This document shows positions 1-15,442 of a stretch of DNA of 64,000 nt, in pieces. Within the stretch, counting starts at the first letter, position 1. The number at the start of each line of letters is the position of its first letter. Position numbers and translations under genes: made by a program. The notes beneath the pieces were generated by a model. That model did not search any database and was not told the DNA's origin. It saw nothing but the letters and a program-made list of their open reading frames with translations. The DNA is from Epibacterium ulvae (GTDB lineage: Bacteria; Pseudomonadota; Alphaproteobacteria; Rhodobacterales; Rhodobacteraceae): assembly GCF_018678075.1 (NCBI RefSeq), contig NZ_JAHHIR010000033.1, positions 62,001 to 126,000 on the forward strand. Reading direction: 5' to 3'.

Positions 1-3000
1 ACGGCGTTCAGCCTGAATTCAAAATGCTATGCCGCCGCGATGGACAGTTTTGCGGAGGTTCTCGAACAGCTCGAAAGTAACACGCTGAACCGGCAGCCGC
101 AGGACCTGAGCCAGCGCCAATATTTCGCCAAGGCGGATCGCCCCTGGGGGGATGGCCTGCTGGATTTCACCAAATCCGCAACGGATTTGGCGCAACTGAT
201 CCGCGCCCTGGATTTTGGCGACTATTGGAACCCGCTCTGTGCGCCGAAAATCGTAGTCGACGATCACGTTCTGCTGGTCAAGCAAGCCGAAGCGGTCGAT
301 GACGATGGAAGCGCAGGCACGATCCTTGATGTCTCAGACGATACGCTGACCATTGCTTGTGGTGACGGCGCCGTGAAGGTCAACCAGATTTCGCGGGCTG
401 ATGGGGCGCATATTGAGTTGGCGACCCTCGCCGCGGTTGGATCTCAGCTATCTCAACCAGACGCCAAAATGGGGACTGCGGTTGAAGCCGCCATGCGATC
501 CGCGCAGGCGGGTGAAGCCCACTGGCGCGCAGCCCTTGGGCAAATGCATCCGCTCACGGCTCCTTTGGCGCAAAGCACCGGTAGGAGCGGTTGGATCACG
601 GAAACAATTGATCTGCCTGAAGGGCTGAGCCACGCAGAGATCGCAACCGCCGCGTCGGCCTGGGCATTGCTTAGCACGGGGGAGGACTATGGCGATATTG
701 CCCTGCACGTGGACACCTCCAAAGGCTATCCCGGTTTCGTCAGCGATTGGGTGCCGTTGCACAGCCGCCGTGATACAGTGCTATCTGACGCGGTGGCGCA
801 AGCCTCCGACACATTGGCCAAAGCGCAAAAGTTCGGCGGATTTTCCTGTGATCTGATTGCTCGCGCTCCAGAGCTGACCGCCCAAGCAAGGCCCGAGATC
901 GCACTGTCTTTCGGCAATGACACCCCCGTCACCGGCGCGGTGCTGACCCTGTCGGTTGATGACGCGCACGCAACGTTGCATGGCGATGCCGCTCGCTTGG
1001 ATGCGCGCGCTATGTCATTGCTGGGTGAGCGGCTTCGTCTGGTTCTGAAAGCCTTGCCCGACCACGGTGCCCAGCCCCTAAAGTCGTTGCCGATACTGCC
1101 GGATGCCGAACGCAAACTGTTGTTGGAAGAATGGACCGAAACAGCCTGCGACTTCGCCGCTGACCTGACCATTCACCAAGCGTTTGAAGCGCAGGTCGCC
1201 AAGACACCGGATGCAACGGCGCTGGTGTTTGAAGCCGAAACGCTGACCTATGCGCAGCTGAATGCGCGCGCCAATGGCGTGGCCCAGCGCCTGCAGGACA
1301 TGGGGGTGACACCGGGTGCGCATGTTGGGATCTATGTGCGTCGCTCGGTTGATCTGGTGGTGGCCGCATTTGGCGTGCTCAAAGCGGGCGGTGCCTATGT
1401 GCCGCTGGATCCGGCCTACCCTGCCGATCGTATTGCGCATTATGTCTCCGACAGCGAAGCCTCTGTTATTGTGACACAATCGGCCATGGTCGCCAGCCTG
1501 CCGACATCCAATGCAGCCGTGTTGGAGATCGAGAGCCTGCATCACGCCGAACAGGGTGAGAATATCGACAGCGGTGCCAGCGGCGATGATCTGGCCTATT
1601 TGATCTACACCTCAGGCTCGACCGGGCTGCCCAAGGGGGTGATGGTCACACACGCCAATGTCTCAAACTTCTTCACTGGCATGGACCAACGCATTCCTTA
1701 CCAGCCCGGTGACAGCTGGCTCGGGGTGACCTCCCTGTCGTTTGATATCTCGGTGTTGGAGCTATTCTGGACCTTGTCGCGCGGCTTCAAATTGATCCTG
1801 TCGAGTGATGAGAGCCGTCTGCAACTGTCCAACGGCCCCATCGCCACCAGCGACCGCAAGATGGAGTTCAACCTCTTTTACTGGGGCAATGACGACGGGG
1901 CAGGCCCCAAGAAATACGAGCTGCTGCTCGAAGGCGCAAAATTTGCCGACCAAAACGGGTTCAATGCGGTCTGGACGCCGGAACGCCACTTCCACGCCTT
2001 TGGCGGCCCCTACCCCAACCCGTCGGTCACCGGTGCGGCCGTTGCTGCGGTCACGCAGAACATCGGCGTGCGCGCGGGGTCTTGTGTTGCACCGCTCCAC
2101 CATCCGGCGCGGATCGCCGAGGAATGGGCCGTGATCGACAATCTGACCAATGGGCGCACGGGTCTGGGATTTGCCTCTGGCTGGCAGCCTGATGATTTCA
2201 TTCTGCGCCCTGAGAACACGCCGCCTGCAAACAAACCTGCGCTGTTTGAAAGCATCGAAACCGTGCGCAAACTGTGGCGCGGTGAAGAGGTCGCCTTTGC
2301 GCGCAAAGATGGCGGCACGCACAATGTGATCTCGCAACCGCGTCCTGTTTCAAAAGAGCTGGACGTCTGGGTGACAACCGCAGGCAATCCGGACACCTGG
2401 CGCGAAGCGGGGTCCATGGGAGCCAATGTTCTGACCCACCTGTTGGGCCAAAGCATTGAAGAGGTCGCGGGTAAGATCCGCATTTATCACGACGCGCTGC
2501 GTGCGGCAGGCCACGATCCCGCGGATTTCACCGTCACCTTGATGCTGCACACATACCTCGCCGACACCCGCGAAGAAGCCCGGTCCGTGGCGCGCGAGCC
2601 GATGAAGGACTATCTGCGCTCTGCCGCTGGCTTGATCAAACAATATGCCTGGGCCTTCCCCGCGTTTAAGCGGCCCGAAGGGGTGAATAACCCGTTTGAG
2701 GTCGACCTTGGCAGCCTGTCAGGAGAAGAGCTGGAAGCGATCCTCGATTTTGCCTTTGAGCGTTATTTCGAGGAGTCCGGCCTGTTCGGCACGATCAACG
2801 ATGCCTGCACCCGCGTGGAAGAGCTTAAACGCATCGGCGTGGATGAGATCGCCTGTCTGATCGATTACGGCATTGCGCCCGACGTGGTACTGGAAGGGCT
2901 GAAACCACTGGCCGATGTGCTGCGGCTGTCCAATGCGCCACAGGAATTGGCGGATGACGACTTCTCGCTTGCCGCGCAGATGATCCGCCACACTGTGTCC

Positions 3001-4140
3001 CATATGCAGTGCACGCCCTCTATGGCGCGGATGATCACGATGAACAATGAGGCGCGGATGGCCGCGGGGCGTCTGCAACATCTGCTGGTCGGCGGCGAAG
3101 CTTTGCCCGGTGATCTGGTCGCGGCTTTGCGTGAAAACAGCGGCGCGCAGATCCACAATATGTATGGCCCGACCGAGACGACGATTTGGTCAACCGTGCA
3201 GACCCTGGACGGGGTGCCTGCGGGCGTTGCGGATATCGGCACGCCAATTGCCAATACCGATATCTTGGTTGTGAATGATGCGGGCGACCCCCAACCCATT
3301 GGTGCACCAGGCGAATTACTCATCGGCGGCGCAGGTGTCACCGAAGGGTACTGGCAACGCGCTAAGATGACGGCTGATCGTTTTGTCGACGTCCCCCACA
3401 AGCCGGGCACCTTCTATCGCACCGGCGATCTGGTCCGCTGGCGCGCCGATGGGCGGATCGACTTTCTGGGCCGCACCGACCACCAGGTCAAAATTCGCGG
3501 CCAACGGATCGAACTGGGTGAGATCGAGGCGGCGCTTGCCGCATACCCCGGTGTCACAGCCGCCGTTGTCATGCCCCGCAAAATCGGCGAAGGCGAACGG
3601 TTGGTGGGCTATGTCACCGCATCAGCGCCAATTTCTGAGGAGGCGGTGCAAAAATCCCTGGCGACCAAACTGGCAGAGGTCATGGTGCCTGCCCATATCG
3701 TGACGCTTGAAACCTTCCCGCTGACCCCAAACAAAAAGATCGACCGCAAAGCGCTGCCTGATCCCACCCCCGCACGAAAGGTCACCGCAGCCACGGTCGC
3801 TCCCGCCGCCGGTGCGCAGGCGCAAATCGCCGACATCTGGTCGCGTATCCTGGGTGTTTCAAATGTTGGCGCGCAGGACAATTTCTTTGCCCTTGGCGGC
3901 CACTCCCTGCTGGCAGTTCAGGCCCATCGCGAAATTCGCGAAACCCTTGCAGCGGCGCGCCTGTCGATCACGGATATCTTCCGCTTTCCGACCCTATCCG
4001 GGCTGGCCGATCACATCGAAGGCCTGTCTGGTGGCAAAACCGCAGAAGAGCCCGAAGCAGATGCGGTCGATGACGCGACACGCGCGGATCGAATGTCCAA
4101 ACGCCGTGCAATGCGCGCCAACCGGAAGGCGCGGGTGTAA
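1..4140 (+). CDS. NRPS-like formyltransferase / adenylation-LLM / carrier protein (5' end outside window)
   Basis: The frame is open to base 1, so the ATG at 40 is internal and the start lies upstream. Numbering from that ATG: residues 1-125 are the end of a formyltransferase with its C-terminal domain (SFAEVL, PQDLSQRQYF); 135-370 resemble a condensation-domain remnant without HHxxxDG; an adenylation domain begins near 378 (A3 core YTSGSTGLPKG near 520). At about 608-962 the adenylation domain is interrupted by an FMN-dependent luciferase-like monooxygenase of the MupA/Atu3671 type, then resumes (GGEAL, NMYGPTETT, NKKIDRKAL). A carrier domain follows with GGHSL, Ser1289 being the phosphopantetheine site. 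There is no thioesterase; the tail is basic. The domain order is clear; the product is unknown. The next gene begins on its stop codon (TAATG), so it is the first visible gene of a coupled operon. Confidence 0.93.
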   Translation, partial: TAFSLNSKCYAAAMDSFAEVLEQLESNTLNRQPQDLSQRQYFAKADRPWGDGLLDFTKSATDLAQLIRALDFGDYWNPLCAPKIVVDDHVLLVKQAEAVDDDGSAGTILDVSDDTLTIACGDGAVKVNQISRADGAHIELATLAAVGSQLSQPDAKMGTAVEAAMRSAQAGEAHWRAALGQMHPLTAPLAQSTGRSGWITETIDLPEGLSHAEIATAASAWALLSTGEDYGDIALHVDTSKGYPGFVSDWVPLHSRRDTVLSDAVAQASDTLAKAQKFGGFSCDLIARAPELTAQARPEIALSFGNDTPVTGAVLTLSVDDAHATLHGDAARLDARAMSLLGERLRLVLKALPDHGAQPLKSLPILPDAERKLLLEEWTETACDFAADLTIHQAFEAQVAKTPDATALVFEAETLTYAQLNARANGVAQRLQDMGVTPGAHVGIYVRRSVDLVVAAFGVLKAGGAYVPLDPAYPADRIAHYVSDSEASVIVTQSAMVASLPTSNAAVLEIESLHHAEQGENIDSGASGDDLAYLIYTSGSTGLPKGVMVTHANVSNFFTGMDQRIPYQPGDSWLGVTSLSFDISVLELFWTLSRGFKLILSSDESRLQLSNGPIATSDRKMEFNLFYWGNDDGAGPKKYELLLEGAKFADQNGFNAVWTPERHFHAFGGPYPNPSVTGAAVAAVTQNIGVRAGSCVAPLHHPARIAEEWAVIDNLTNGRTGLGFASGWQPDDFILRPENTPPANKPALFESIETVRKLWRGEEVAFARKDGGTHNVISQPRPVSKELDVWVTTAGNPDTWREAGSMGANVLTHLLGQSIEEVAGKIRIYHDALRAAGHDPADFTVTLMLHTYLADTREEARSVAREPMKDYLRSAAGLIKQYAWAFPAFKRPEGVNNPFEVDLGSLSGEELEAILDFAFERYFEESGLFGTINDACTRVEELKRIGVDEIACLIDYGIAPDVVLEGLKPLADVLRLSNAPQELADDDFSLAAQMIRHTVSHMQCTPSMARMITMNNEARMAAGRLQHLLVGGEALPGDLVAALRENSGAQIHNMYGPTETTIWSTVQTLDGVPAGVADIGTPIANTDILVVNDAGDPQPIGAPGELLIGGAGVTEGYWQRAKMTADRFVDVPHKPGTFYRTGDLVRWRADGRIDFLGRTDHQVKIRGQRIELGEIEAALAAYPGVTAAVVMPRKIGEGERLVGYVTASAPISEEAVQKSLATKLAEVMVPAHIVTLETFPLTPNKKIDRKALPDPTPARKVTAATVAPAAGAQAQIADIWSRILGVSNVGAQDNFFALGGHSLLAVQAHREIRETLAAARLSITDIFRFPTLSGLADHIEGLSGGKTAEEPEADAVDDATRADRMSKRRAMRANRKARV

Positions 4141-4859
4141 TGCAGGCGCCCTCACCCGGCCTATGCGCGCAGCGCCACGACTTGGCGCGCGCGTTGTTTG
4201 GACCGGACGTCCGCATTTGTGTCACCGACCCGCAACAACCGCAGCCCGCGCCATTCCCTGACGAAGCCGCGGGCCTGTCCCCGCGCGCGGTGGAGAAACG
4301 CCAGCGCGAATTTGCAGCCGGGCGCGCAGCCGCACATCAGGCCATACACGACCTTGGACACCCGCCCGTTGCCATTCCGGTCGGCGAACACCGGGCACCC
4401 ATTTGGCCCAATGGGTTGACCGGCTCCATCAGCCACACGCACAGCTGCGCCATGGCGGCCGTGGCGGATACCAAGGATTTCGCGGGCCTCGGTCTGGATG
4501 TTGAGGAAGACACGCCGCTTAAACCCGAACTGTGGGATGCGATCTGCTCAGCCGGTGAACAAGACTGGATGCGCCGCCAAAAGAACCCCGGACAGATGGG
4601 TAAACTTATTTTTTCCGCCAAAGAAGCCGCCTATAAATGCCAATATGCGTTGAGTGAGACATATTTTGGGTTTGACGGGATGGAGCTTGAGATCGACAGC
4701 CACGACAACCGTTTCCTGGCGCGGTTCACAGCCGACCGTGCTCCGTTCAAAGCCGCTGACGAGATCGCTGGCCGCTTTGCAATTGGGGCGGGCGTTATCA
4801 TAACTGCCGCAGAACTGCCGCGCGCGGTCGCGGATCATATGCAACAGAGGCCCGAATGA
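4140..4859 (+). CDS. 4'-phosphopantetheinyl transferase (EntD/Sfp type)
   Basis: This enzyme should transfer phosphopantetheine from CoA to the carrier-domain serine of the NRPS-like protein encoded just upstream. The 239-residue protein has the family motifs in order: RQREFAAGRAAAHQAI (residues 54-69), GSISHT (95-100), GLDVEED with metal-binding Asp120 and Glu122, and FSAKEAAYK (158-166). Length and motif order fit the EntD branch rather than the longer Sfp branch. Its ATG overlaps the upstream TAA by one base and its TGA overlaps the next ATG (ATGA), which indicates coupled translation. A dedicated transferase supports the view that the upstream carrier protein is functional. Confidence 0.93.
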   Translation: MQAPSPGLCAQRHDLARALFGPDVRICVTDPQQPQPAPFPDEAAGLSPRAVEKRQREFAAGRAAAHQAIHDLGHPPVAIPVGEHRAPIWPNGLTGSISHTHSCAMAAVADTKDFAGLGLDVEEDTPLKPELWDAICSAGEQDWMRRQKNPGQMGKLIFSAKEAAYKCQYALSETYFGFDGMELEIDSHDNRFLARFTADRAPFKAADEIAGRFAIGAGVIITAAELPRAVADHMQQRPE

Positions 4860-5767
4860 CCGGACGACGCGCGATACTTGGGCTCTTGGCCCTTTTGCCC
4901 TTTGGATCTTGGTCCGGGTTTGCGGAGGCCGCATCTGTACCGGTGCCCGCGCTCGATGCGCCAGAGGGGGCCATGTCCGTCTATCACCTGGGGCATTCGC
5001 TGGTGGGGCCGGTGATGCCACATATGCTGGCGCAGCTGGCCCCAACCGCGCACCGCTGGAACAGCCAGCTGGGCTCGGGCACCTCGCTCAAGGAACATTG
5101 GGAGCCGGGCCTGCCCATTCGTGACTTTGAGATTTCCAATACGCCGCCCAGCTTCCGCGATGCGCGCGAGGCGATTGGTTCGGGCGATTACGACGCAGTG
5201 GTGCTGACGGAAATGGTCGAGCTGCGCGATGCGATCAAATACTTCGGATCTGCGAAATACCTGCGACGCTGGGCGGATCTGGCGCGCACCGCACCCAAAG
5301 CGCCGCGCATCTATTTGTATGAAACCTGGCACAATTTGGATGATCCGGGCGGCTGGTTAGAGCGTATCGATGCAGATCTTGAGCCTTTGTGGCTGGGTCG
5401 TGTTCTGGGTTCCGACAGCCGTCGCAATCCAACTGACCAGCTGTATCTGATCCCAGCCGGACAGGTTATGGCCGCAGTGGTCCGCGCCGCCGAAGCTGGC
5501 GAGATCGACGGGCTGCATACGCGACAAGATCTATTCTCGGACACCATTCACCTTAATGATCTGGGGGCTTATGTGGTCGCGCTCACGCATTTCGCCGTGC
5601 TGTATCACCAGAACCCGGTGGGTCTGCCGCATGTATTGACCCGCCCCGACGGCACCGAAGCAGAGGCGCTTACCCCTACCGGCGTTGCACAGGTACAGGC
5701 GATCGTCTGGCAGGTTGTCACGGCCATGCCGCGCACCGGAATTTCAGGGGCGGCAGAGGCAAAATGA
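4856..5767 (+). CDS. Exported SGNH-hydrolase-like protein
   Basis: A 303-residue protein with an N-terminal export signal (MTGRR, then a hydrophobic stretch ending near FAEAA at residue 26), so it probably acts in the periplasm or outside. The mature part carries the SGNH landmarks: LGHSL with candidate nucleophile Ser48, and DTIHLNDLG with candidate Asp229 and His232. SGNH proteins in polysaccharide loci often add or remove acyl groups, which is the likely role here. It shares order and motifs (GHSL, VLTE/VTEAIP, ETWH, AGQ, DDIHPND-like) with the first domain of the next gene, so the two are probably paralogues. It overlaps both neighbours by 4 bp in ATGA junctions. The substrate is unknown. 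Confidence 0.75.
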   Translation: MTGRRAILGLLALLPFGSWSGFAEAASVPVPALDAPEGAMSVYHLGHSLVGPVMPHMLAQLAPTAHRWNSQLGSGTSLKEHWEPGLPIRDFEISNTPPSFRDAREAIGSGDYDAVVLTEMVELRDAIKYFGSAKYLRRWADLARTAPKAPRIYLYETWHNLDDPGGWLERIDADLEPLWLGRVLGSDSRRNPTDQLYLIPAGQVMAAVVRAAEAGEIDGLHTRQDLFSDTIHLNDLGAYVVALTHFAVLYHQNPVGLPHVLTRPDGTEAEALTPTGVAQVQAIVWQVVTAMPRTGISGAAEAK

Positions 5768-8271
5768 TACTGTCTGAGGTTTTGAAATCCGTCGTTTTTG
5801 TCGGCCACTCGCTGTTTGGCCATGAAAACCCGCAGATGCTCGACCAACTGCTGGACCGCGACCAACCTGCAGCCGTTCAGGCGCAGATCATCAATGGCGC
5901 ACCGCTGAGTTATAACTGGCAACACGCCAGCGAAGCCGAAGGGATCAACGCCCGCGCAGCCCTGCCCACTGGCGTGGACGCGGTGATCGTGACCGAAGCG
6001 ATCCCGCTGGCCAATCACCTCAAATGGAGCAACAGCCGCGAGGCCGTCACCCAGTTCTATGAATTGGCACGGACCGGCAATCCAGACGTGCAGTTTTATC
6101 TGCAAGAAACCTGGCACAGCCTCGACAGCGGCACCGATGAGACCATCCCATTTGACGACGGCATGGCAATCCCTTGGCGTGAACGCCTCACTCAAGATCT
6201 GCCTGCGTGGCAGGCCGTGGTGGACGATGTAAACGCAGAGGTCGGCGGCAATATTAAACTGTTGGAAGCCGGCCAAGCGATGGCGCGTTTGGATGACGCG
6301 ATCACTGCGGGCACGGTTCCCGGGCTGACCGACATTCGCGACGTCTTCGCCGATGACATCCATCCCAATGACATCGGTTTTTACTATCTCAGCCTCTTTC
6401 AATATGCGGTGCTGACGGGGAAATCACCCGAAGGTCTGCCGCGTCAGCTCAAGGATCGCTGGGGCACGCCGTACAAGGCAGCCTCGCAGGCGCAGGCCGC
6501 GCGGTTGCAGGAAATCGCCGCGCGCGCGGCCCGCAAAGATGTGCAGCGCACCGCCCTGCCACCGGATCCCGGAGCCTTGCCGCAAGAGCCCATTCCCGTG
6601 CGTCTGAACCAAGACAGGACGGCGTCCCAGGCTCTGTTTGGCAAGACGCGCCAACAGCCCATCGCCATGAACCTCGCCTCGGTTGTTGACTGGTCGCCGC
6701 AAGCGCCGTTTCTGGATCATTTCAAAACCGCGCGTGCCTGGATCGGCCATCTTCCCGGTCGTTGGGGCGGTGTGACAGCGGCAGAGCTACGTGACGCAGG
6801 CTATCTGGATCAGGATGGCTGGCCCAAGGCGGTTCCGGCCAATCTGGGCTCCATCGGCACTGTTTTATTGGCAGATTTACCCGAAGAAGCCCGTACGCTG
6901 GTCGGACGATACCGGCTGAGCTTTGACGGCGATGGCATTGTCGAGGTGTCGGGACGTGCGGAAAACGTCCGCTACAGACCGGGTGAAGTCTGGTTTGATT
7001 TCACCCCGGGCCCCGGCATTGTCGAGGTACGTATTCAACGCAGTGACCGGCAGGGAAACGGCGACTACGTGCGCAATATCTCGGTCGTGAAACAAGAACA
7101 CCTGGAGGATTTTGCAGCCGGGCGCGTGTTCAACCCGCGATGGCTCGACATTTTGGACGGGTTTGAAGTTCTGCGCTTTATGGACTGGATGGAAACCAAT
7201 GATTCCGAGCAAATCGGCTGGGAAGATCGCCCGCTGATCCAGGACTATAGCTGGGCCATAAAAGGCGTCCCCGCCGAGGTGATGTTGCGTTTGGCCAATG
7301 AGCTGGGCGCAGCACCGTGGTTTTCCATGCCCCATCAGGCCGATGACAGCTATATGCGCAATTTCGCCCGTCTGGCGCATCAGTTCCTGGATGAAGATCT
7401 GCGCCTTTATGTGGAATATTCAAATGAGGTCTGGAATTGGCAATTCAATCAGGCCCAATGGGCCGAGGTTGAGGGGCGCAAACGCTGGGGCGGCGAAAAC
7501 CTGTGGATGCAATACTACGGCGCGCGCGCAGCCGAGATGGCCCAGATTTGGAGCGACGTCTTTGCCGAAAACGCCGACGACCGTCTGGTCCGCGTGATCG
7601 CCACACAAACCGGTTGGCTTGGTCTGGAAGAGCAGCTGTTGGAGGCCCCGCTTTGGCGCGCAGAAGATCCGAAGAACCGTGCTCCGGCTGACTACTTTGA
7701 TGCCTATGCGGTCACCGGCTACTTTGGTGGCGTGCTGGGCCGGGACGACTATGTTGATGTCGTGCGTGCCTGGATTGCGGACAGCCGCGCCCGTGCCGAT
7801 GACGCCGGGCGAAAGAAGGGGCTGATCGGCAGCGCTTTGCGCACCTTTGTACGTGAGCACCAGTTTGACATCGCCAGCGCCCAGGCCACGGCCGAGCTGC
7901 GCGATGGGCTGATCTCTGGTCAGGCCTCAGATACATTGGCCGATCTGTTGAACCGGATCCTGCCCTATCATGGCGAGGTCGCGCAGTCCCATGATCTGGA
8001 TCTGATCATGTATGAAGGTGGCAGCCATATCGTGGGCGTCGGCCCGCATGTGGAGGATGAAACGCTGACGCAGTTCTTTGTGCATTACAATTATTCCGAG
8101 GATATGGGGCTTTTGTACCAAGAGCTGCTGGCCGGGTGGCACGCGCTCGGTGGGCAGCTGTTCAACGCCTACGCCGATGTCTACCCGCCCGGACGCTGGG
8201 GCAGTTGGGGGGCGCTGCGTACGTTGAGCGACCGCAATCCCCGCTGGTCTGCCCTAGAGGCCGCCAAATGA
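5764..8271 (+). CDS. SGNH-like domain fused to a glycosidase-like domain
   Basis: An 835-residue two-part protein. Residues 1-235 repeat the SGNH-like layout of the previous gene (VGHSLFG with Ser16, QETWHS, ADDIHPNDIG with Asp198 and His200). After a linker, residues 300-835 look like a TIM-barrel glycosidase-like module: YVEYSNEVWN offers a candidate acid/base Glu555 and LIMYEGGSH a candidate nucleophile Glu751, as in clan GH-A enzymes, but overall similarity by eye is weak. No convincing signal peptide is visible, unlike the upstream paralogue; the start at 5764 is set by the ATGA overlap. I infer a glycan acyl-modifying or trimming enzyme serving the polysaccharide of this locus. The catalytic class is not established. 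Confidence 0.65.
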   Translation: MILSEVLKSVVFVGHSLFGHENPQMLDQLLDRDQPAAVQAQIINGAPLSYNWQHASEAEGINARAALPTGVDAVIVTEAIPLANHLKWSNSREAVTQFYELARTGNPDVQFYLQETWHSLDSGTDETIPFDDGMAIPWRERLTQDLPAWQAVVDDVNAEVGGNIKLLEAGQAMARLDDAITAGTVPGLTDIRDVFADDIHPNDIGFYYLSLFQYAVLTGKSPEGLPRQLKDRWGTPYKAASQAQAARLQEIAARAARKDVQRTALPPDPGALPQEPIPVRLNQDRTASQALFGKTRQQPIAMNLASVVDWSPQAPFLDHFKTARAWIGHLPGRWGGVTAAELRDAGYLDQDGWPKAVPANLGSIGTVLLADLPEEARTLVGRYRLSFDGDGIVEVSGRAENVRYRPGEVWFDFTPGPGIVEVRIQRSDRQGNGDYVRNISVVKQEHLEDFAAGRVFNPRWLDILDGFEVLRFMDWMETNDSEQIGWEDRPLIQDYSWAIKGVPAEVMLRLANELGAAPWFSMPHQADDSYMRNFARLAHQFLDEDLRLYVEYSNEVWNWQFNQAQWAEVEGRKRWGGENLWMQYYGARAAEMAQIWSDVFAENADDRLVRVIATQTGWLGLEEQLLEAPLWRAEDPKNRAPADYFDAYAVTGYFGGVLGRDDYVDVVRAWIADSRARADDAGRKKGLIGSALRTFVREHQFDIASAQATAELRDGLISGQASDTLADLLNRILPYHGEVAQSHDLDLIMYEGGSHIVGVGPHVEDETLTQFFVHYNYSEDMGLLYQELLAGWHALGGQLFNAYADVYPPGRWGSWGALRTLSDRNPRWSALEAAK

Positions 8272-9110
8272 GTGCGGATTTGGGGCTGAGCGTCCTTATC
8301 CCGGCCCATAATGAGGCTGGCGAAATCGGCGCTTGTCTTGCGGCGGTCTTTGCCTCAGATCCGTTGCCAGATGGGGTTCAAGGCGAGGTTTTGGTGCTGG
8401 CGAATGGCTGCACAGATGCCACGGCAGAGCTCGCCCGCAGCACCACGCCGCCTGCGGGGTGGGACATAAGCGTGCTGGAAATCACCGAGGGCGGCAAGCT
8501 GAACGCTTTGAACCAGGGCGACGCGCAGGCACAGGGCAAAGTCCTGGTCTACCTTGATGCGGATGTACGCGTCTCCCCATCACTCTTGCCGCAGATTTAC
8601 GGCGTTCTGTCACAAGAGGGTGCGGGCTATGCCTCTGGCCAGCCTCAAGTTTTGGGCGGGGCTTCCGCCTTTAGCCGCGCCTATGGTCGCCTGTGGCAGC
8701 GCTTGCCGTTTGTGGTGCACGGCGTGCCGGGCTTTGGTCTGTTTGCCATGAACCGCCAAGGGCGCGCGCGCTGGAACACTTGGCCGCAGATCATTGCCGA
8801 TGACACATATGCGCGGTTGATGTTTACCACCAACGAACGCCACAAGGTCGCCGCCCCCTATGAATGGCCGCTGGTTCAGGGATTTCGCAATCTGGTACGG
8901 GTGCGACGTCGGCAAAACGATGGAGTGCGCGAGATTGAACAGCTCTACCCCGATCTGTTGGAAAACGAAGATAAATTCGCACCCCGCAAAAGCGCGGTGC
9001 TGCGCCTGTTTCTCACCGACCCGGTTGGTTTTCTGACCTACGCACTGGTCACGTTGGCAGTGAAATCTCCACTTTTTCGTAGCAAAACCCGTTGGACGCG
9101 GGGGCGCTAA
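8268..9110 (+). CDS. Family 2 glycosyltransferase
   Basis: A 280-residue GT-A-fold glycosyltransferase. The N-terminus is classic GT2: SVLIPAHNEAGEIGACL, VLANGCTDAT, and the nucleotide-sugar-binding acidic motif in VYLDADVRVS. The ATG at 8268 lies in an ATGA overlap with the upstream stop and directly precedes the conserved fold; the open frame extends further upstream but without conserved sequence. It would add one sugar to the glycan made by this locus, in the cytoplasm or at the inner membrane face. Its stop overlaps the stop of the convergent GT4 gene by 4 bp. Confidence 0.88.
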   Translation: MSADLGLSVLIPAHNEAGEIGACLAAVFASDPLPDGVQGEVLVLANGCTDATAELARSTTPPAGWDISVLEITEGGKLNALNQGDAQAQGKVLVYLDADVRVSPSLLPQIYGVLSQEGAGYASGQPQVLGGASAFSRAYGRLWQRLPFVVHGVPGFGLFAMNRQGRARWNTWPQIIADDTYARLMFTTNERHKVAAPYEWPLVQGFRNLVRVRRRQNDGVREIEQLYPDLLENEDKFAPRKSAVLRLFLTDPVGFLTYALVTLAVKSPLFRSKTRWTRGR

Positions 9111-10306
9111 CGCCTGGTGGACCGGATATGTGCGGCCAGTTTCGCGGCCTCGGTATCGCTGTCATGACGCTCCAATACGCGCAGCCGCCCGACCTGCCCC
9201 ATCTCAGCCCGCCTATCAGTTGAAGTCTCCGCCAGCTCCAGGATCGCGCGCGCCAACTGCTCTTGATCCCCAGCCGGAACCATCCAGCCGGTCTGGCCGG
9301 GCACAACCAGCTCTGGCGTGCCCGCGATATAGGTTGCGATGACAGGACGCGCGGCGGCCATGGCTTCCATCACCACCATAGGAAGCCCTTCGGCAAAGGA
9401 GGGCATAACCAAGGCATGCGCCTGCGCCAATTGCGCCCGCACGCCAGCCTCATCCAGCCAACCGGTTAGGGTCACATTGTCCCCAATGCCGTGATGCGCA
9501 ATTGCGGCTTCCAGATCTGCGCGCAGATCACCATCACCAATCAAGTATAGCTGCGCCTTCGGCTGTGCCTTCACAACATCCGCAAACGCATGCACCAGCA
9601 CCATCTGGCCCTTTTGTTCAACAAACCGACCAATGGCTGCCAAACGCAGGTCGCCATCGGGCATTTCGGCAGGGTCAGCGAATTTTTGCGGCTCAATCCC
9701 GCAATGGACGATTTTGATCCTGTCCCAGGCGTCAAACTCGGCCCAACGGCTTAGCTGACTGCGTCCGAAACTGCTGATGGCCACAGTAAAAGCCGAAGCG
9801 TTGACCTTAGCGCCTAGGGACAAGGACTGGGGTACATCAAACTCCTCTGGTCCGTGGGCGGTGAAACTATAGGTTGGGCCACCCAAAAGATGCGCAAGCA
9901 TCGCAACAGCCGTGGAATTGGTGCCAAAATGCGCGTGCATATGTTCGCCCCCTTGGCTGGCGCAACGCTGTTTGACCCAAGCTGCCTCCCCCAAATAGAT
10001 CAGGTGCCGCAAAACACCGGTCGAGGACTGCCGTCCCATCGCGATGGCCTGTTTCAATACGGTCCCAAACCCCGGCTGTGTGACTTCGCGCAACAGCGCA
10101 CGTGCCAAGGCGCCCAAGCCCTTGGCCAAAACATACTCCGTCTTGGCGGCTTCGGCTGTGTCGCCATCGTCCACCAAGGGCGCATCGCTGGCGCGCATTG
10201 CAAGACGCGCAACCTCAAACCCTTGCCGCTCCAGAGCCTGAATTTCTCGTCGGATAAAAGAATGCGATGGCTGCGGGTAAGTGTTCAGAACATATACAAT
10301 TTTCAC
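9107..10306 (-). CDS. Family 4 glycosyltransferase
   Basis: A GT-B-fold glycosyltransferase of about 399 residues. It starts KIVYVLNTYPQPSHSFIRREI and carries the C-terminal GT4 donor-site block SFAEGLPMVVMEAMAAARP (Glu-x7-Glu) and GTPELV. I chose the GTG at 10306 because AAAGG lies 8 bases ahead and it directly precedes the conserved first beta strand; a TTG at 10369 would add 21 non-conserved residues. It is transcribed towards the GT2 gene and away from the flippase gene, from an intergenic region with a long inverted repeat. The sugar donor and acceptor cannot be read from sequence. Confidence 0.87.
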   Translation of the reverse strand: MKIVYVLNTYPQPSHSFIRREIQALERQGFEVARLAMRASDAPLVDDGDTAEAAKTEYVLAKGLGALARALLREVTQPGFGTVLKQAIAMGRQSSTGVLRHLIYLGEAAWVKQRCASQGGEHMHAHFGTNSTAVAMLAHLLGGPTYSFTAHGPEEFDVPQSLSLGAKVNASAFTVAISSFGRSQLSRWAEFDAWDRIKIVHCGIEPQKFADPAEMPDGDLRLAAIGRFVEQKGQMVLVHAFADVVKAQPKAQLYLIGDGDLRADLEAAIAHHGIGDNVTLTGWLDEAGVRAQLAQAHALVMPSFAEGLPMVVMEAMAAARPVIATYIAGTPELVVPGQTGWMVPAGDQEQLARAILELAETSTDRRAEMGQVGRLRVLERHDSDTEAAKLAAHIRSTRR

Positions 10307-10386
10307 ATCAACGGCCTTTGACAATATGTGCGCCGACCATACGCTACTCTGCGCTTTGAGCCGGTGCAAAATAATGCATCATATTA

Positions 10387-10537: not shown

Positions 10538-11905
10538 ATGGCGAGTGTACTTGCGCGATTGCAGGGATCGGGGTTGATGGCCCGGGCGCTGCGGTCGGCG
10601 TCGTGGATGATTGTCGGATACGGCGGCGGTCAGGCCATGCGATTGGCCTCAAACCTGATCCTGACGCGTATCCTGTTTCCCGAAGCCTTTGGCATGATGG
10701 CCCTTGTGACCGTGATCGTCACTGGGCTTGTGCTGTTTTCTGATGTCGGCATTGGCCCCTCGATCCTGCAAAGCGATCGCGGAGATGACCCGGCCTTTCT
10801 GGACACCGCCTGGAGCATCCAAGTGGTGCGTGGACTGTGTCTGTGGGGCGTCACTTTCCTGCTCGCCTGGCCGGTGGCGCAGTTCTATGACGTGCCGGAT
10901 CTGACCTATATTTTGCCGCTGGCCGGGACCATGTTGGCGGTCGAGGGATTCAAAACCACCCGCATTGAAACAGCACATCGCCATCTGATGGTCGGACGGG
11001 TCACGCAGCTTGAACTGGCCAGCCAATTTGTCAGCCTCGCCCTTATGGTTGGTGTTGCCCTTCTCACCCAATCTGTTCTGGCGCTGGTACTTGGAACCGT
11101 GATGCAGTCGCTTACTTATGTGATGTTCACCCACATCAACCTGCCCGGACATCGCAACCGGTTTCACTGGGACAAGGCATCCGCTCGCGAGTTGATCGGA
11201 TTTGGTAAGTGGATTTTCCTGTCTACCGCTTTCTGGTTTGTTACGACCCAAGGTGACCGCGCGATCCTGGGTAAATTCATTTCGCTGGAAACCCTGGGCG
11301 TCTACAATATCGCGTTCTTCCTAGCGAGCTTTCCCATGGCGCTGGGGTATGCCGTCAATCAAAGACTGATGATCCCGGTCTACCGCGACGCGCTGGCGAA
11401 CGCAGATCACACCAGCCGCCGCAAACAACGCATGCTGCGCTTTGCGCTGTCAGCTGGCATCCTGTCGCTTGTGTGGATCATGGCCATCATTGGTCCGTGG
11501 CTGGTCGAACTGTTGTATGATGAACGGTATCATTTGGCCGGTGCCATTATCGTACCGCTCGCCCTCGCACTTGCTCCGGCCGTTATTGTCATGACCTATG
11601 ATCAAGCCGCCTTGGCTGCGGGTGATAGTAAGACCTATTTTATGGTCAGCGCGGCGCGCGCCATTTCGCAAACGGTCTTGTTCTTGTTCGGTGTCGCGTC
11701 CATTGGCCTGCCGGGCGGCATTGCGGCAATGGGTGCGGCGCTTTTGTTCACCTACCCGTTCATCATCGCGCTTGCCCTCAAACATAGGGTTTGGGATCCG
11801 CTTCATGACGGCATTATGGCTGGTTTGACCTTGGGTGTTGGTTATGTCGCCTTGCACATCCATTGGGATTTAATCGTTGCGATGGTCACAGCGTTGCGCC
11901 CGTAA
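10538..11905 (+). CDS. Wzx-type polysaccharide flippase (MOP superfamily)
   Basis: A 455-residue integral membrane protein made almost entirely of hydrophobic segments, about 12 by eye, matching the oligosaccharide-flippase layout and length. The N-terminal SASWMIVGYGGGQAMRLASN and the FPEAFGMMALV that follows are typical of this family. It would move undecaprenyl-linked oligosaccharide across the inner membrane. The start at 10538 has GAGGGA 7 bases ahead. It lies between glycosyltransferases and the Wzz/CpsD/initiating-transferase genes, so it most likely serves the same polymer. It ends 19 bases from the end of the convergent Wzz-type gene. Confidence 0.88.
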   Translation: MASVLARLQGSGLMARALRSASWMIVGYGGGQAMRLASNLILTRILFPEAFGMMALVTVIVTGLVLFSDVGIGPSILQSDRGDDPAFLDTAWSIQVVRGLCLWGVTFLLAWPVAQFYDVPDLTYILPLAGTMLAVEGFKTTRIETAHRHLMVGRVTQLELASQFVSLALMVGVALLTQSVLALVLGTVMQSLTYVMFTHINLPGHRNRFHWDKASARELIGFGKWIFLSTAFWFVTTQGDRAILGKFISLETLGVYNIAFFLASFPMALGYAVNQRLMIPVYRDALANADHTSRRKQRMLRFALSAGILSLVWIMAIIGPWLVELLYDERYHLAGAIIVPLALALAPAVIVMTYDQAALAAGDSKTYFMVSAARAISQTVLFLFGVASIGLPGGIAAMGAALLFTYPFIIALALKHRVWDPLHDGIMAGLTLGVGYVALHIHWDLIVAMVTALRP

Positions 11906-11924: not shown

Positions 11925-13190
11925 TCAAACGCGCGACTGTCTGGCTTTTTGCTGCAGCTTCCTGCGTCGTTTTATGGAACGCGCGTCGGTCTTCAACTCG
12001 GGAACAGACACAACCGGCATCAACCCGGTTTCGCGTTCCATCTGAGCTGCCGTGCGCAAGACAGGACGCATCAATTCCATGGCAAAGGCTGCGCAAATCG
12101 CAAAGATGAAGCCCGCAAAGCCCCCCATAATCGCGAGTTTTTTGCGCCCGCCACTGACCGGGAAGTCGGGCCAGGACGCGGCTTCGATGATGGTCAGCCT
12201 TTCGGATTGGCTGGTGTTTTCCAAACGAAATCCCACCTCAGCCTCGCTACGTCGTTCCACGATTGAGGCCAGTTGGTTCTGCAATTGCTGGATCTGGCGA
12301 TCAAGAGTCCCCAGCTGGCGCTCCACCTGCGGTGAGGTCTGCAAGGCCAATTCCAACTCGGCCTTTCGTTCGCTCAGCAATGTGTTCTGAGCATCCAGCG
12401 TCGCAATCTCTTCCTGCAGTTCCGCCAATTTGCGCCGCGCGGTTGCCGGGCGCTCGCCCTCGTTCACCTGATCCGCAGCGCGGCGCAGCGTGATCATCTC
12501 GCGTGCGATTTCCAACAGGCTCTGATTGAGTTGCGCAATCTCACCACGGCGCAGTTCAATCACGCCGGGTTGCGAGATGTCATGTTCAAACCGAAACTGG
12601 GTCACTTCATCTTCAAGACGCGCCAGTTCGTCTTTGATTGCGTTTTCTTTTTCGGCGAAGAACTCCAACGTCTCCCGCGCCTGTTGAATGCGCGTCTGAA
12701 CGCTCAGCTCCACCAACCTGGCGGCAAATTCATCAGCCACCTGCTGCGCCATCAACGGCGTGCCCATGGTCGCGGTGATCGTGAGCACCGAAATCGTGCC
12801 ATCGTCCGCAAAACCTTCACGTGCGGCAGCGACACCTGTGATGGAAATCGATTGGCGCATGTTCGTGACGATTTCCGACGCCTTCATGGCGGGCGTATCC
12901 GCATAGATGCCAAGCTTATCAACGATATCCAGCAGCATGCTACGGGTCATGAGGCGTTGTTCGATCAGCTGAATGCGCCGCGCGGAAGATCCATCAACAG
13001 TGGAGCGCGCCAGATCATCGGCGATCATGGGCTGGGTCACCTGGATCACGACCGCTGATTCATAAGTATGGTCGCGCTGCAACGCGACAAACACCGAAGC
13101 AATGCACCCCAAAAGAGTGACAGTCACAACGAGGCGCGCACGTCGGCGCACCATGTCGAGGAAATCCCGCAGTGTATAGATCGGACCCAT
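11925..13190 (-). CDS. Wzz/GumC-type polysaccharide chain-length and export protein
   Basis: A 421-residue polysaccharide co-polymerase. It has an N-terminal membrane helix (residues 17-37, LVVTVTLLGCIASVF), a periplasmic region with long heptad-rich coiled coil (about 165-300), the pre-C-terminal proline-glycine block ASWPDFPVSGGRKK, and a second membrane helix (about 345-367). The tail is short and basic with no kinase domain; the partner kinase-like protein is a separate gene upstream. It should set polymer length and help export. It is transcribed after the CpsD-like gene (122-base gap). No strong ribosome site is visible before the ATG. Confidence 0.88.
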   Translation of the reverse strand: MGPIYTLRDFLDMVRRRARLVVTVTLLGCIASVFVALQRDHTYESAVVIQVTQPMIADDLARSTVDGSSARRIQLIEQRLMTRSMLLDIVDKLGIYADTPAMKASEIVTNMRQSISITGVAAAREGFADDGTISVLTITATMGTPLMAQQVADEFAARLVELSVQTRIQQARETLEFFAEKENAIKDELARLEDEVTQFRFEHDISQPGVIELRRGEIAQLNQSLLEIAREMITLRRAADQVNEGERPATARRKLAELQEEIATLDAQNTLLSERKAELELALQTSPQVERQLGTLDRQIQQLQNQLASIVERRSEAEVGFRLENTSQSERLTIIEAASWPDFPVSGGRKKLAIMGGFAGFIFAICAAFAMELMRPVLRTAAQMERETGLMPVVSVPELKTDARSIKRRRKLQQKARQSRV

Positions 13191-13312: not shown

Positions 13313-14176
13313 TTAATCCGCGCGCGCACGGTTCAATACAACGCCAAGCAATTGCGTATGGCCGGCCAGGATTTTTTCACAGGCCGCCAGATCCTTGGCA
13401 GTGGTGCGGGTGCCATCCGCCACAAGAAGAACGCCATCCACCTGCGGCAAAAACGCGGTCAGATCATCGTGTTCCAGCACGGGCGGAAGGTCAAACAAGG
13501 CCACATCCGCGCGGCTGTCTGTCATCATCGTGTCGATGGCTTTGCTGGTGGTTGGATTTTGCAGAATCTCCGAACCAGAGACTTTGCCAGCCCGGTTAAG
13601 GCCAACCGACAAGCCGTCAGACAACCGCATCAGATGGCGATGGGCCGGAACCCGTCCCGACAGGAAACCAACCATGTCACCATCATCGGACAATGCCAGC
13701 GCACGGGCGACATTTGGTTTGCGGAAGTTCATATCCATCACGATGGTGCGCGAATTGGGAACACGTGCCAAACCCTGCGCAAGATTGACCGTCATCCAGG
13801 TGGCTCCGCACCCGCTGGTCGGGGCTGCAATCGCCACACGACGCCACCCTTGGGCGCGCAGGGTATGCAACAGCCGTGTGCGCAGCAGATCAATGGCTTT
13901 TGCGCTTTCGGTGTCGCGGAAGCGATCCACCAGCGGCAAGGCCCGGCGCACCACTTGCGCCGCGTCGATTTTGCCGACACGCAGACGGCTCCACACTGGG
14001 GTCCGCGGGTCTTCGACTGGCTCACGCACGGGCAGCTTAGCTTCTGGTTCCATCAAGATTTCGGGGGCGCGTTCGATCGCCATTGCCGGAGGCTCCACAG
14101 CGATAGGGCCAGATGGCGCAGTCTGCGAGGTGCGGCTGCGGCGGTGAAAACTCTTTATCTTTTTCGGCTCAGACAT
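13313..14176 (-). CDS. CpsD/CapB-like polysaccharide ATPase with altered Walker A
   Basis: A 287-residue P-loop protein of the CpsD/CapB/ParA-like family that partners Wzz-type proteins. The Walker A position reads APTSGCGATWMTVNLA: the invariant lysine is Ala125, while Thr126 remains. The Walker A' block MDMNFRKPNVA and Walker B-like ALFDLPPV are present. The C-terminus has no tyrosine cluster, so it is probably not an autophosphorylating tyrosine kinase of the Wzc type. The ATG at 14176 is chosen because GGAGGGGA lies 5 bases ahead; an ATG at 14287 would add 37 residues. I recall similar GCG(A/T)T loops in related bacteria, so this may be a lineage trait rather than decay. Confidence 0.82.
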   Translation of the reverse strand: MSEPKKIKSFHRRSRTSQTAPSGPIAVEPPAMAIERAPEILMEPEAKLPVREPVEDPRTPVWSRLRVGKIDAAQVVRRALPLVDRFRDTESAKAIDLLRTRLLHTLRAQGWRRVAIAAPTSGCGATWMTVNLAQGLARVPNSRTIVMDMNFRKPNVARALALSDDGDMVGFLSGRVPAHRHLMRLSDGLSVGLNRAGKVSGSEILQNPTTSKAIDTMMTDSRADVALFDLPPVLEHDDLTAFLPQVDGVLLVADGTRTTAKDLAACEKILAGHTQLLGVVLNRARAD

Positions 14177-14338
14177 GAGGCTCCCCTCCAGCGATGGATG
14201 CGCGCCTAGTTCTTGCTGCTCACCAATGTGGTCCGAATTACCCAATTCGCATAGGTCCTTCATCTTGAAATCTCCATGTCTTAACATCTTTAATCAGTTT
14301 GTTTCGCTGTCGAACGGCATTCGCGCCAGTTCGACGTC

Positions 14339-15106
14339 TCAATATCCGGTGCCACGCAGCACCACGCCCACAGTGCGCCGCATAATCTGCAAATCTTCGC
14401 GCAGGCTGACAAAGGACACATACTCCCGATCCAACAATTGTCGCGCGGCAAACCCACTTTCGTTGCGGGCAGAGACCTGCCATTTTCCCGTGATACCTGG
14501 ACGCATCGTGAAATAGGCATCGGAGCTGCCGTACATCTCAAGCTGGTCGGGCAACATCGGGCGGGGGCCAACCAGGCTCATGTCGCCCGTGAGCACATTC
14601 CAAATCTGCGGAAGCTCATCCAGCGAAGTCACCCGCAGGAACCGGCCAACAGGTGTGATCCGTGGGTCATTTTTCAGCTTTTGCGTCGCATCCCACTCCG
14701 CTCGCAACGCGGGATCCGCGTCGAGGTAATAGGCAAGCATCGTATCTGCCTGGCGCACCATCGTGCGAAGTTTAAGGATCGAAAAGACGCGTCCATTCCG
14801 ACCCAAGCGTTTCTGACGGTAAAACGGCAGACCACTTTCGACCCACAGGGCAACCGCACAGAGCGCAATAATCGGCACAACAAGAGGAAGCGCGGCAACC
14901 ACTAGCAAAAGGTCCAAACCACGTTTGCCGAGACGACCGTAAGCACCGCGACGCAACAGGCCACCGTAAAACCCGCTGGCCGCTTTTGGCATCGTTGCGG
15001 TTTGCGACGGGGCATCCGCACAGCCCGCTGCGCCCTGCAGCGATACTGCGTTGGTCTGTTGTCCGACAAAGGGCAACCCTTTGTCCCGCGCAAGCAAATC
15101 GTCCAT
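14339..15106 (-). CDS. Initiating undecaprenyl-phosphate sugar transferase (WbaP/ExoY type)
   Basis: A 255-residue bacterial sugar transferase that would load the first sugar phosphate onto undecaprenyl phosphate. It has one hydrophobic hairpin (GLDLLLVVAALPLVVPIIAL), then the catalytic region: PFYRQKRLGRNGRVFSILKLRTM, SLDELPQIWNVLTGDMSLVGPRP and MRPGITGKWQVSARNE. The ATG at 15106 has GGGGA ahead; the frame runs upstream to 15187 without conserved sequence. It is the first gene of the minus-strand series transferase, CpsD-like, Wzz, and its presence makes this a complete initiation, flipping and length-control set for an exopolysaccharide or capsule. Confidence 0.92.
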   Translation of the reverse strand: MDDLLARDKGLPFVGQQTNAVSLQGAAGCADAPSQTATMPKAASGFYGGLLRRGAYGRLGKRGLDLLLVVAALPLVVPIIALCAVALWVESGLPFYRQKRLGRNGRVFSILKLRTMVRQADTMLAYYLDADPALRAEWDATQKLKNDPRITPVGRFLRVTSLDELPQIWNVLTGDMSLVGPRPMLPDQLEMYGSSDAYFTMRPGITGKWQVSARNESGFAARQLLDREYVSFVSLREDLQIMRRTVGVVLRGTGY

Positions 15107-15442
15107 AAACAGTCCCCACCATTCCAACATTCGACGCACACACAAAAACAGGCCAGGCGCATGTTTGCCCCTGTGCACATCCCACAACGTGCGTGTCTGT
15201 CTAAAAGCCCGGAGGCGAACCTTCGAAATATCGTGGTTCGCTATCCGAAAATTGCGGCGAAATCTTCGTCTACTCTTTTACCTTAAATTTGAGACGCTTT
15301 TTGCGAAATACACTATACGGCTAGGTTACGGTTAATATTGGTTAAGATCACGTCTTACGATGTAAACAGTTTAACTTTTGTATAGGAATTGTTTCTAAAG
15401 CTTGAAAATAGATCATGAGGTTAAGCCCAACGAGCAACGACT
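15107..15442. other. AT-rich intergenic region upstream of the sugar transferase
   Basis: These 336 bases lie upstream of the initiating sugar transferase and downstream of the AraC gene, both on the minus strand, so they should hold the transferase promoter. They are clearly AT-richer than the flanks. I see a perfect short dyad TAAAC-A-GTTTA at 15363-15373 and repeated GGTTA words near 15323-15345, but no motif I can assign with confidence. Confidence 0.4.

Follow-up and report, generated by a model that had tools for sequence, protein, structure and literature searches.

A conserved PKS-NRPS pair at an exopolysaccharide locus of Epibacterium ulvae and its possible role in glycan decoration

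In the myxothiazol and melithiazol assembly lines (MtaG and MelG), a flavin monooxygenase lies between motifs A4 and A5 of a glycine adenylation (A) domain of a nonribosomal peptide synthetase (NRPS); hydroxylation at the glycine alpha carbon is followed by cleavage of the C-N bond, which gives a glyoxylyl thioester (PMC10204066, PMC11342130). The hydroxyglycine is retained in solanimycin B (PMC10204066). CongA is a loading module composed of a formyltransferase (FT) domain, a glycine A domain and a peptidyl carrier protein (PCP) domain, and it feeds a polyketide synthase (PKS) (PMC4504003). Hybrid clusters have also been listed for Rhodobacterales, according to the portions of the genome papers that were available: Phaeobacter inhibens T5 has the PKS Inhi_1972 and the NRPS Inhi_1974, two locus tags apart (PMC4062626), Tritonibacter mobilis a type I PKS/NRPS hybrid (PMC11225332), and Paracoccus marcusii CP157 a hybrid cluster on a 225-kb replicon (PMC8273931). 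Herein, we analysed a stretch of 64,000 nucleotides from Epibacterium ulvae (NCBI RefSeq assembly GCF_018678075.1, contig NZ_JAHHIR010000033.1, positions 62,001 to 126,000; referred to as the window), which opens inside the gene of an NRPS-like protein surrounded by exopolysaccharide genes, and the PKS-NRPS system to which that protein belongs.

The PKS-NRPS system is real, conserved and larger than the part contained in the window. We tentatively propose that it is a dedicated line that decorates the exopolysaccharide, whose repeat units would bear a short acyl group primed by N-formyl-alpha-hydroxyglycine or glyoxylate. Such a system would be undescribed in the literature searched, conserved across much of Rhodobacterales, and either shared with Hyphomicrobiales and Deinococcus or invented anew there. 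In the available text of the open-licence papers searched, no link of the PKS-NRPS pair to a polysaccharide was found.

The PKS-NRPS operon and its conservation

The initial annotation, made from the window alone, had placed in its first 9,110 nucleotides an NRPS-like gene, a phosphopantetheinyl transferase (PPTase), two SGNH proteins and a family 2 glycosyltransferase (GT2) next to polysaccharide genes. All the genes that it listed were confirmed by Pfam, NCBIfam and structure models. The upstream extension that it called for was run and yielded the full NRPS-like open reading frame (ORF) of 1520 aa, which starts 422 bp before the window. With the upstream sequence, a single coupled operon emerged, comprising PKS, GT2a, NRPS, PPTase, SGNH1, SGNH2 and GT2b joined by overlaps of 1-4 bp, as the annotation had noted for its own part. 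Since the start of the window truncates the operon, the PKS and GT2a could not be seen from the window alone. The operon is laid out as follows, in window coordinates (the window being G000:C27:62001-126000), with upstream positions negative.

about -7893 to -1447, upstream of the window: PKS, 2148 aa, with ketosynthase (KS), acyltransferase (AT), ketoreductase (KR), dehydratase (DH), acyl carrier protein (ACP) and thioesterase (TE) domains, KS-AT-KR-DH-ACP-TE (Pfam/NCBIfam)
-1450 to -419, upstream of the window: glycosyltransferase GT2a, between PKS and NRPS and coupled to the NRPS
1..4140 in the window, full ORF from -422 (G000:C27:61578), (+): NRPS-like protein, FT-halfC-A1-LLM-A2-PCP, 1520 aa
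1..441, (+): N-formyltransferase domain, C-terminal part, residues 142-288 (Pfam); its catalytic residues lie just upstream of the window
442..1161, (+): half C, the C-terminal lobe of a condensation (C) domain without the HHxxxDG lobe (hhalign, AlphaFold2, Foldseek)
1162..1863, (+): A domain, piece 1, up to motif A4 (Pfam, NCBIfam)
1867..2919, (+): FMN-dependent luciferase-like monooxygenase (LLM; TIGR04020), between A4 and A5
2920..3762, (+): A domain, piece 2; code DILQLGMIWK (putatively glycine)
3823..4017, (+): PCP domain, serine S1443 (Pfam PP-binding)
4030..4137, (+): basic C-terminal tail of the NRPS, RRxxMR type, docking-like (motif count in tails)
4140..4859, (+): Sfp-type 4'-phosphopantetheinyl transferase, overlapping the NRPS stop by 1 bp
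4856..5767, (+): SGNH1, single-domain SGNH protein with a hydrophobic N-terminus (export signal by eye)
5764..8271, (+): SGNH2, N-terminal SGNH domain and a C-terminal part like TIM-barrel glycoside hydrolases (AlphaFold2, Foldseek)
8268..9110, (+): GT2b, a GT2 glycosyltransferase and last gene of the operon; its ATG overlaps the SGNH2 stop by 4 bp

The distribution of the system was assessed in 198 genomes of the family, representing 198 genera. TIGR04020 exceeded its cut-off in 68 of them (about a third; 70 places by row count). Outside the E. ulvae genome, 69 places exceeded the cut-off; about 20 kb on each side was taken for 60 of them, which together with the E. ulvae locus gave 61 neighbourhoods. 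The other nine, judged to be on short or awkward contigs although these were not all of known length, were left out (G118, G158, G028, G098, G087, G108, G069, G166 and G022). Presence means within about 20 kb, or less near contig ends, and gene families were called with profiles grown from the E. ulvae locus, by which divergent genes are missed. The 57 loci of the first layout view were used for layouts and alignments, not for counts.

A PKS homologue was present in all 61 neighbourhoods, and the domain order FT-halfC-A-LLM-A-PCP recurred in 60, so that chance is not an issue. The PKS constitutes one six-domain ORF in 59; in G009 it is broken into several frames, as is the NRPS, and in G132 it is cut by the contig end. 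The lone carrier-bound amino acid envisaged by the initial annotation was not borne out: with the PKS as constant partner, glycine more probably serves as a primer for chain extension. GT2a was found in 59 neighbourhoods and PPTase in 50. With a limit of 500 bp, GT2a ended close upstream of the start of the NRPS ORF in 55 of 61 neighbourhoods, and PPTase began close to the end of the NRPS in 46 of 61. G126 (C6, C47) and G132 (C72, C142) each have two copies of the cassette, which differ in gene order.

Pfam and NCBIfam recognised in the NRPS-like protein both formyltransferase domains (N and C), a two-piece AMP-binding domain flanking Bac_luciferase, and PP-binding. The monooxygenase domain scored 471 bits against the TIGR04020 cut-off of 244, and its nearest solved structure was PuwE (6ket, 335 bits). 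As in modules of the Gly-MOX type (glycine A domain with monooxygenase), the LLM is inserted between A4 and A5 and a PCP follows; in place of the complete upstream C domain of such modules, only the C-terminal lobe was found. The N-terminal FT with its catalytic Asn, His and Asp, followed by A and PCP, has the anatomy of a formylating initiation module, to which the half C domain and the LLM are additions. These catalytic residues (N87, H89 and D125) are kept in 60-61 of 61 aligned sequences.

The stretch between FT and A was considered as a new domain, and this was rejected. It matched the C-terminal lobe of the full C domains in relatives from Planctomycetota and Poribacteria (hhalign E 2.8e-5, probability 74), and Foldseek with its AlphaFold2 model (pLDDT 91) returned NRPS C domains as the top folds (E 1.3e-10). 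The relatives in question, L082 (Planctomycetota) and L079 (Poribacteria), have a full C domain and no FT. FT and the N-terminal lobe of C thus look swapped between these relatives and the Rhodobacterales proteins. Given that the HHxxxDG lobe is missing with FT in its place, and that the reverse holds in L082 and L079, the NRPS-like protein is read as a loading module. Two relatives, L084 and L079, have an extra methyltransferase (MT) domain before the PCP (FT-A-LLM-MT-PCP and C-A-LLM-MT-PCP, respectively).

The specificity code of the A domain, the positions of which were assigned by eye after the GrsA numbering, reads DILQLGMIWK. Nine of its ten positions are kept in 59-61 of 61 sequences, with position 299 variable and few other deviations, and DILQ.GM[IV]WK was present in 8/8 relatives compared. 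The code DILQLGMIWK is shared by 4/4 Gly-MOX A domains in the available part of PMC12283262. Glycine, which the initial annotation had named, is thus supported as the probable substrate of the A domain.

The PKS has the organisation of a type I modular PKS, with intact KS, AT, KR, DH, ACP and TE domains and no enoylreductase (ER) domain. Conservation in 59-61 of 61 each was seen for the FT Asn/His/Asp, the PCP Ser, the KS Cys and two His, the AT Ser, the KR Tyr/Asn, the DH His/Asp, the ACP Ser and the TE Ser/Asp/His; the KR serine position holds Ser or Thr in 57 of 61. The 61 aligned PKS rows come from 60 neighbourhoods, G144 being represented twice and G132 absent. This conservation of active sites makes the system look like a working line under selection.

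PKS and NRPS lie on the same strand in 60/60 measured loci. Several relatives have the NRPS immediately ahead of the PKS, with distances taken from mechanical ORF starts or from the record's own gene table. In L082, the NRPS is followed after 15 bp by the PKS and then by a PPTase homologue. Henriciella (L084) shows a 4-bp overlap of NRPS and PKS, which are flanked by a preceding PPTase and a following flippase. In G479 and G537, which belong to other families of the class, the gap from the NRPS end to the PKS is 22 and 54 bp, respectively, and in G144 a PKS-NRPS starts 6 bp after the NRPS; in Aliiroseovarius (L231), an NRPS/PKS gene follows the NRPS module. A free formyltransferase gene, an A-LLM-PCP NRPS and the PKS are consecutive in Deinococcus actinosclerus (L234). 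These arrangements suggest that the NRPS acts first and the PKS second, and we read the order as NRPS then PKS, on two separate proteins. A basic tail motif, defined after inspection of the tails, occurred in 55/60 NRPS tails versus 0/60 PKS tails (shuffled mean 1.3, maximum 6). The NRPS-PKS distance correlation was 0.83, without species-tree control; for comparison, Wzz-CpsD gave 0.82, Wzz-Wzy 0.83, and NRPS or PKS with seven other families 0.27-0.56, all of which ignore the species tree, long proteins giving less noise.

Association with polysaccharide genes

Downstream of the operon, the window contains the following genes.

9107..10369, (-): glycosyltransferase GT4
10538..11905, (+): Wzx-type flippase (Polysacc_synt_3)
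11925..13190, (-): Wzz-like chain-length protein (24.3 bits versus the Pfam cut-off of 25.5; 26.6 bits in a second scan)
13313..14287, (-): CpsD-like P-loop protein (weak Pfam matches)
14339..15187, (-): initiating sugar transferase (Bac_transf)

Upstream of the operon and outside the window are a Wzy-like gene (O-antigen ligase Pfam, 25.1 versus a cut-off of 31.7) and a further GT2. The locus therefore has the parts of a Wzx/Wzy exopolysaccharide locus: flippase, Wzy-like protein (below cut-off), Wzz (borderline), CpsD-like protein (weak) and initiating transferase. Similar plasmid loci of Paracoccus and Parasedimentitalea have genes named CpsD/CapB, which are set beside the CpsD-like protein by name only. 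TamA/TamB-type genes lie upstream of the polysaccharide locus (L003:13239-18490), with homologues in 4/61 (TamA) and 7/61 (TamB) neighbourhoods, that of E. ulvae included.

The initial annotation had tied the cassette to polysaccharide genes and had proposed a co-occurrence test, which came out in favour of this link within the family: at least two of five markers (Wzx, Wzy, Wzz, CpsD and initiating transferase) were found in 55/61 neighbourhoods. By gene, Wzz was present in 54, CpsD in 53, GT2z and GT4 in 49 each, Wzx in 47, Wzy in 43, GT2b in 42 and the initiating transferase in 27. No marker was seen in G144 and G185, and one each in G178, G040, G126b and G132. As a control, the Wzz Pfam profile at E <= 0.001 gave 46 places in 25 hand-picked genomes, none of which belongs to the six marker-poor neighbourhoods, and a place within 20 kb of the NRPS in 24/25 (G032 gave none); by arithmetic, a random 40-kb stretch is expected to hold a Wzz place in about 1.7% of cases.

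Outside the family, related cassettes can lie away from polysaccharide genes. PKS matches at E <= 1e-200 occurred in 12/385 genomes of the class, five of them within the family; of the seven outside it, only G479 and G537, the two that were examined, had near full-length matches. The plasmid search found 28 records, of which 25 were listed and eight opened, one of these (Neorhizobium) having no gene table. In the Paracoccus, Ruegeria and Parasedimentitalea plasmids, PKS, GT2 and NRPS lie among polysaccharide genes. The Aminobacter and Shinella plasmids have a divergent PKS and no GT2 between PKS and NRPS, with flippase, export and glycosyltransferase genes around. The Deinococcus actinosclerus plasmid (L234, 7926-20711), from another phylum, has an FT gene, an A-LLM-PCP NRPS and a KS-AT-KR-DH-ACP-C PKS among capsule genes. 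Its PKS ends not in a TE but in a condensation-type domain (HHLAADA in place of HHxxxDG), which might deliver the chain to an amine or hydroxyl group; a C-type domain at the position of the TE would fit such a transfer to an acceptor. A plasmid search with the Deinococcus PKS at 1e-150 returned its own record only.

The SGNH proteins, to which the initial annotation had assigned the transfer to the glycan, were assessed by sequence and structure. Neither had a Pfam match, and SGNH1 and the N-terminal domain of SGNH2 share 34% identity. Among solved sequences, SGNH1 had no match and SGNH2 two insignificant matches only (E 0.015 and 0.021). With the AlphaFold2 model of SGNH2 (mean pLDDT 82, pTM 0.61), Foldseek returned SGNH enzymes including PatB as the best matches for the first domain, and weaker matches to glycoside hydrolases (GH2, GH5, GH26 and xylanase) for the second part. 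Some relatives match the second part alone; in others, the SGNH part seems to differ in type and, by eye, begins with a signal-like stretch. SGNH1 was found in 24/61 neighbourhoods, SGNH2 homologues in 41/61, and neither in 17/61, and the proteins are thus unlikely to be general transfer enzymes; we regard them as probably accessory. One locus without SGNH genes, L065, carries an Acyl_transf_3 membrane acyltransferase gene.

A possible reaction sequence and its alternatives

From gene order, domain order, active sites, the glycine code, the half C domain, conservation and locus context, all read from sequence, we infer the reactions, hand-overs, acceptor and final product as follows. The Sfp-type PPTase, encoded directly after the NRPS, would prime both carriers. 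The A domain would load glycine onto the NRPS carrier, the FT domain would formylate its nitrogen, and the flavin monooxygenase would oxidise the alpha carbon to give an N-formyl-alpha-hydroxyglycyl thioester or, after loss of formamide, a glyoxylyl thioester. Formylation and oxidation on the carrier, as the initial annotation had suggested, are thereby supported as presumed chemistry. The NRPS carrier, perhaps guided by the basic tail, would pass this primer on to the separate PKS at its KS; the PKS could add one malonyl-type unit (or a few) and has the domains to reduce and dehydrate it. One cycle might give a four-carbon acyl group, such as 4-formamido-(4-hydroxy)-butenoyl or 4-oxobutenoyl. 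The TE would place the acyl group on a hydroxyl or amine of the lipid-linked repeat-unit sugar at the cytoplasmic side, the most likely acceptor being the sugar that GT2a transfers. Export and polymerisation of the repeat units would fall to Wzx, Wzy, Wzz and the CpsD-like protein, and the SGNH enzymes may trim the exported glycan or its substituents. Of the explanations considered, this is the one that we favour, although we regard it as no more than close to an even call that the line makes a short, N-formylated, alpha-oxidised and glycine-primed acyl group that is put on the repeat-unit sugar before export.

Several observations weigh against decoration of the glycan. G185 has an orthologous PKS-NRPS-PPTase, no GT2a and no polysaccharide gene among the genes checked, which also hints that GT2a may be the bridge to the glycan; the cassette there (L191+L192) has glutamine synthetase and MTTB genes in its vicinity. 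The related NRPS-PKS lines of G479, G537, G144 and Aliiroseovarius, for which some of the ORFs were scanned against Pfam or the gene table was read, likewise showed no polysaccharide genes nearby; the link of the cassette to polysaccharide is thus not universal. The PKS lies ahead of the NRPS in 58/60 family loci measured (exceptions, G144 and G126b), contrary to simple colinearity. The correlations of GT2a with NRPS and PKS were moderate (0.41 and 0.44) and those of PPTase weak (0.39 and 0.29). Among solved structures, the FT is closest by sequence to sugar N-formyltransferases (73 bits, versus about 31 bits for the LgrA F domain), and its substrate may thus be a sugar; that it is fused to the NRPS speaks for the aminoacyl carrier as its target.

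These cassettes standing alone give weight to the possibility that the PKS-NRPS pair makes a diffusible or glycosylated small molecule, with the polysaccharide genes as mere neighbours or as suppliers of sugar through the GT2. In G144 (L091+L092) and Aliiroseovarius (L231), FT-A-LLM-PCP precedes larger NRPS-PKS proteins that resemble ordinary natural-product clusters, and a TE commonly releases free products. Nevertheless, we consider this explanation, the main rival, less likely than decoration of the glycan, in view of the marker-rich neighbourhoods in the family, the polysaccharide context that appears again in Hyphomicrobiales and Deinococcus, and the flippase as the only exporter among the genes scanned at the E. 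ulvae locus. A siderophore line was set aside, no siderophore genes having been seen among the locus genes scanned. Given that the KR and DH sites look intact and that no cyclodehydratase was seen among the genes scanned, an oxazole of the conglobatin type is less likely as a product.

It seems improbable that the PKS supplies the polysaccharide with an acyl anchor or primer, as the RkpA/WcbR PKSs of capsule loci may do. A type I PKS among capsule genes has this precedent in the available text (PMC3908369), but the present PKS has no ER, ends in a TE and has a glycine-primed partner, and its locus includes an ordinary initiating sugar transferase and a Wzx flippase, with no ABC capsule exporter among the genes scanned. 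The mechanism of the initial annotation, in which the SGNH pair transfers an amino acid to the glycan after its formylation and oxidation on the carrier, and which would resemble Dlt, appears very improbable, even though A domain, carrier and SGNH proteins share an operon. Apart from the constancy of the PKS and the neighbourhoods in which neither SGNH family was found, SGNH1 has an export-like start by eye and the carrier proteins have none, and no MBOAT gene was seen among the locus genes scanned, which cover all but a few small ORFs. With the SGNH proteins accessory and the PKS constant, Dlt-like aminoacylation by this pair was set aside.

Comparison with known systems

Little is known of the chemistry of roseobacter surface polysaccharides, which probably contribute to attachment to algae, particles and surfaces. 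The recurrence of the system in about a third of the genera sampled and in distant bacteria suggests that these coats may carry an undescribed chemical group. The orphan hybrids of Rhodobacterales are treated as secondary metabolism in the available text of the genome papers, with no polysaccharide link there; those of Phaeobacter and Tritonibacter are likened to the present cassette by description, not by sequence. If the line does feed into the glycan a group that is reactive or carries a formamide, such orphan secondary-metabolism clusters would be coat-modifying systems, hybrid clusters of a widespread family would gain a testable function, and natural-product enzymology would be joined with glycan assembly.

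The E. ulvae NRPS resembles LgrA, CongA and OzmO in having FT, A and PCP as an initiation module; to our knowledge, these three have neither a monooxygenase nor a half C domain. By sequence, sugar N-formyltransferases are closer to its FT than LgrA is, and its context, unlike theirs, is polysaccharide genes. Dlt systems likewise combine an A domain and a carrier with a protein of the SGNH fold, near a surface polymer, but in the present cassette no MBOAT was seen among the genes scanned, glycine would take the place of D-alanine, and a PKS is the partner. RkpA/WcbR share with it a type I PKS among capsule genes, no NRPS partner being described for them in the available part of the source (PMC3908369). 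MtaG and MelG have the same position of the monooxygenase, at A4-A5 of a glycine A domain; they cleave the preceding chain off as an amide, whereas the E. ulvae NRPS lacks a complete C domain, has an FT in front and is paired with a PKS.

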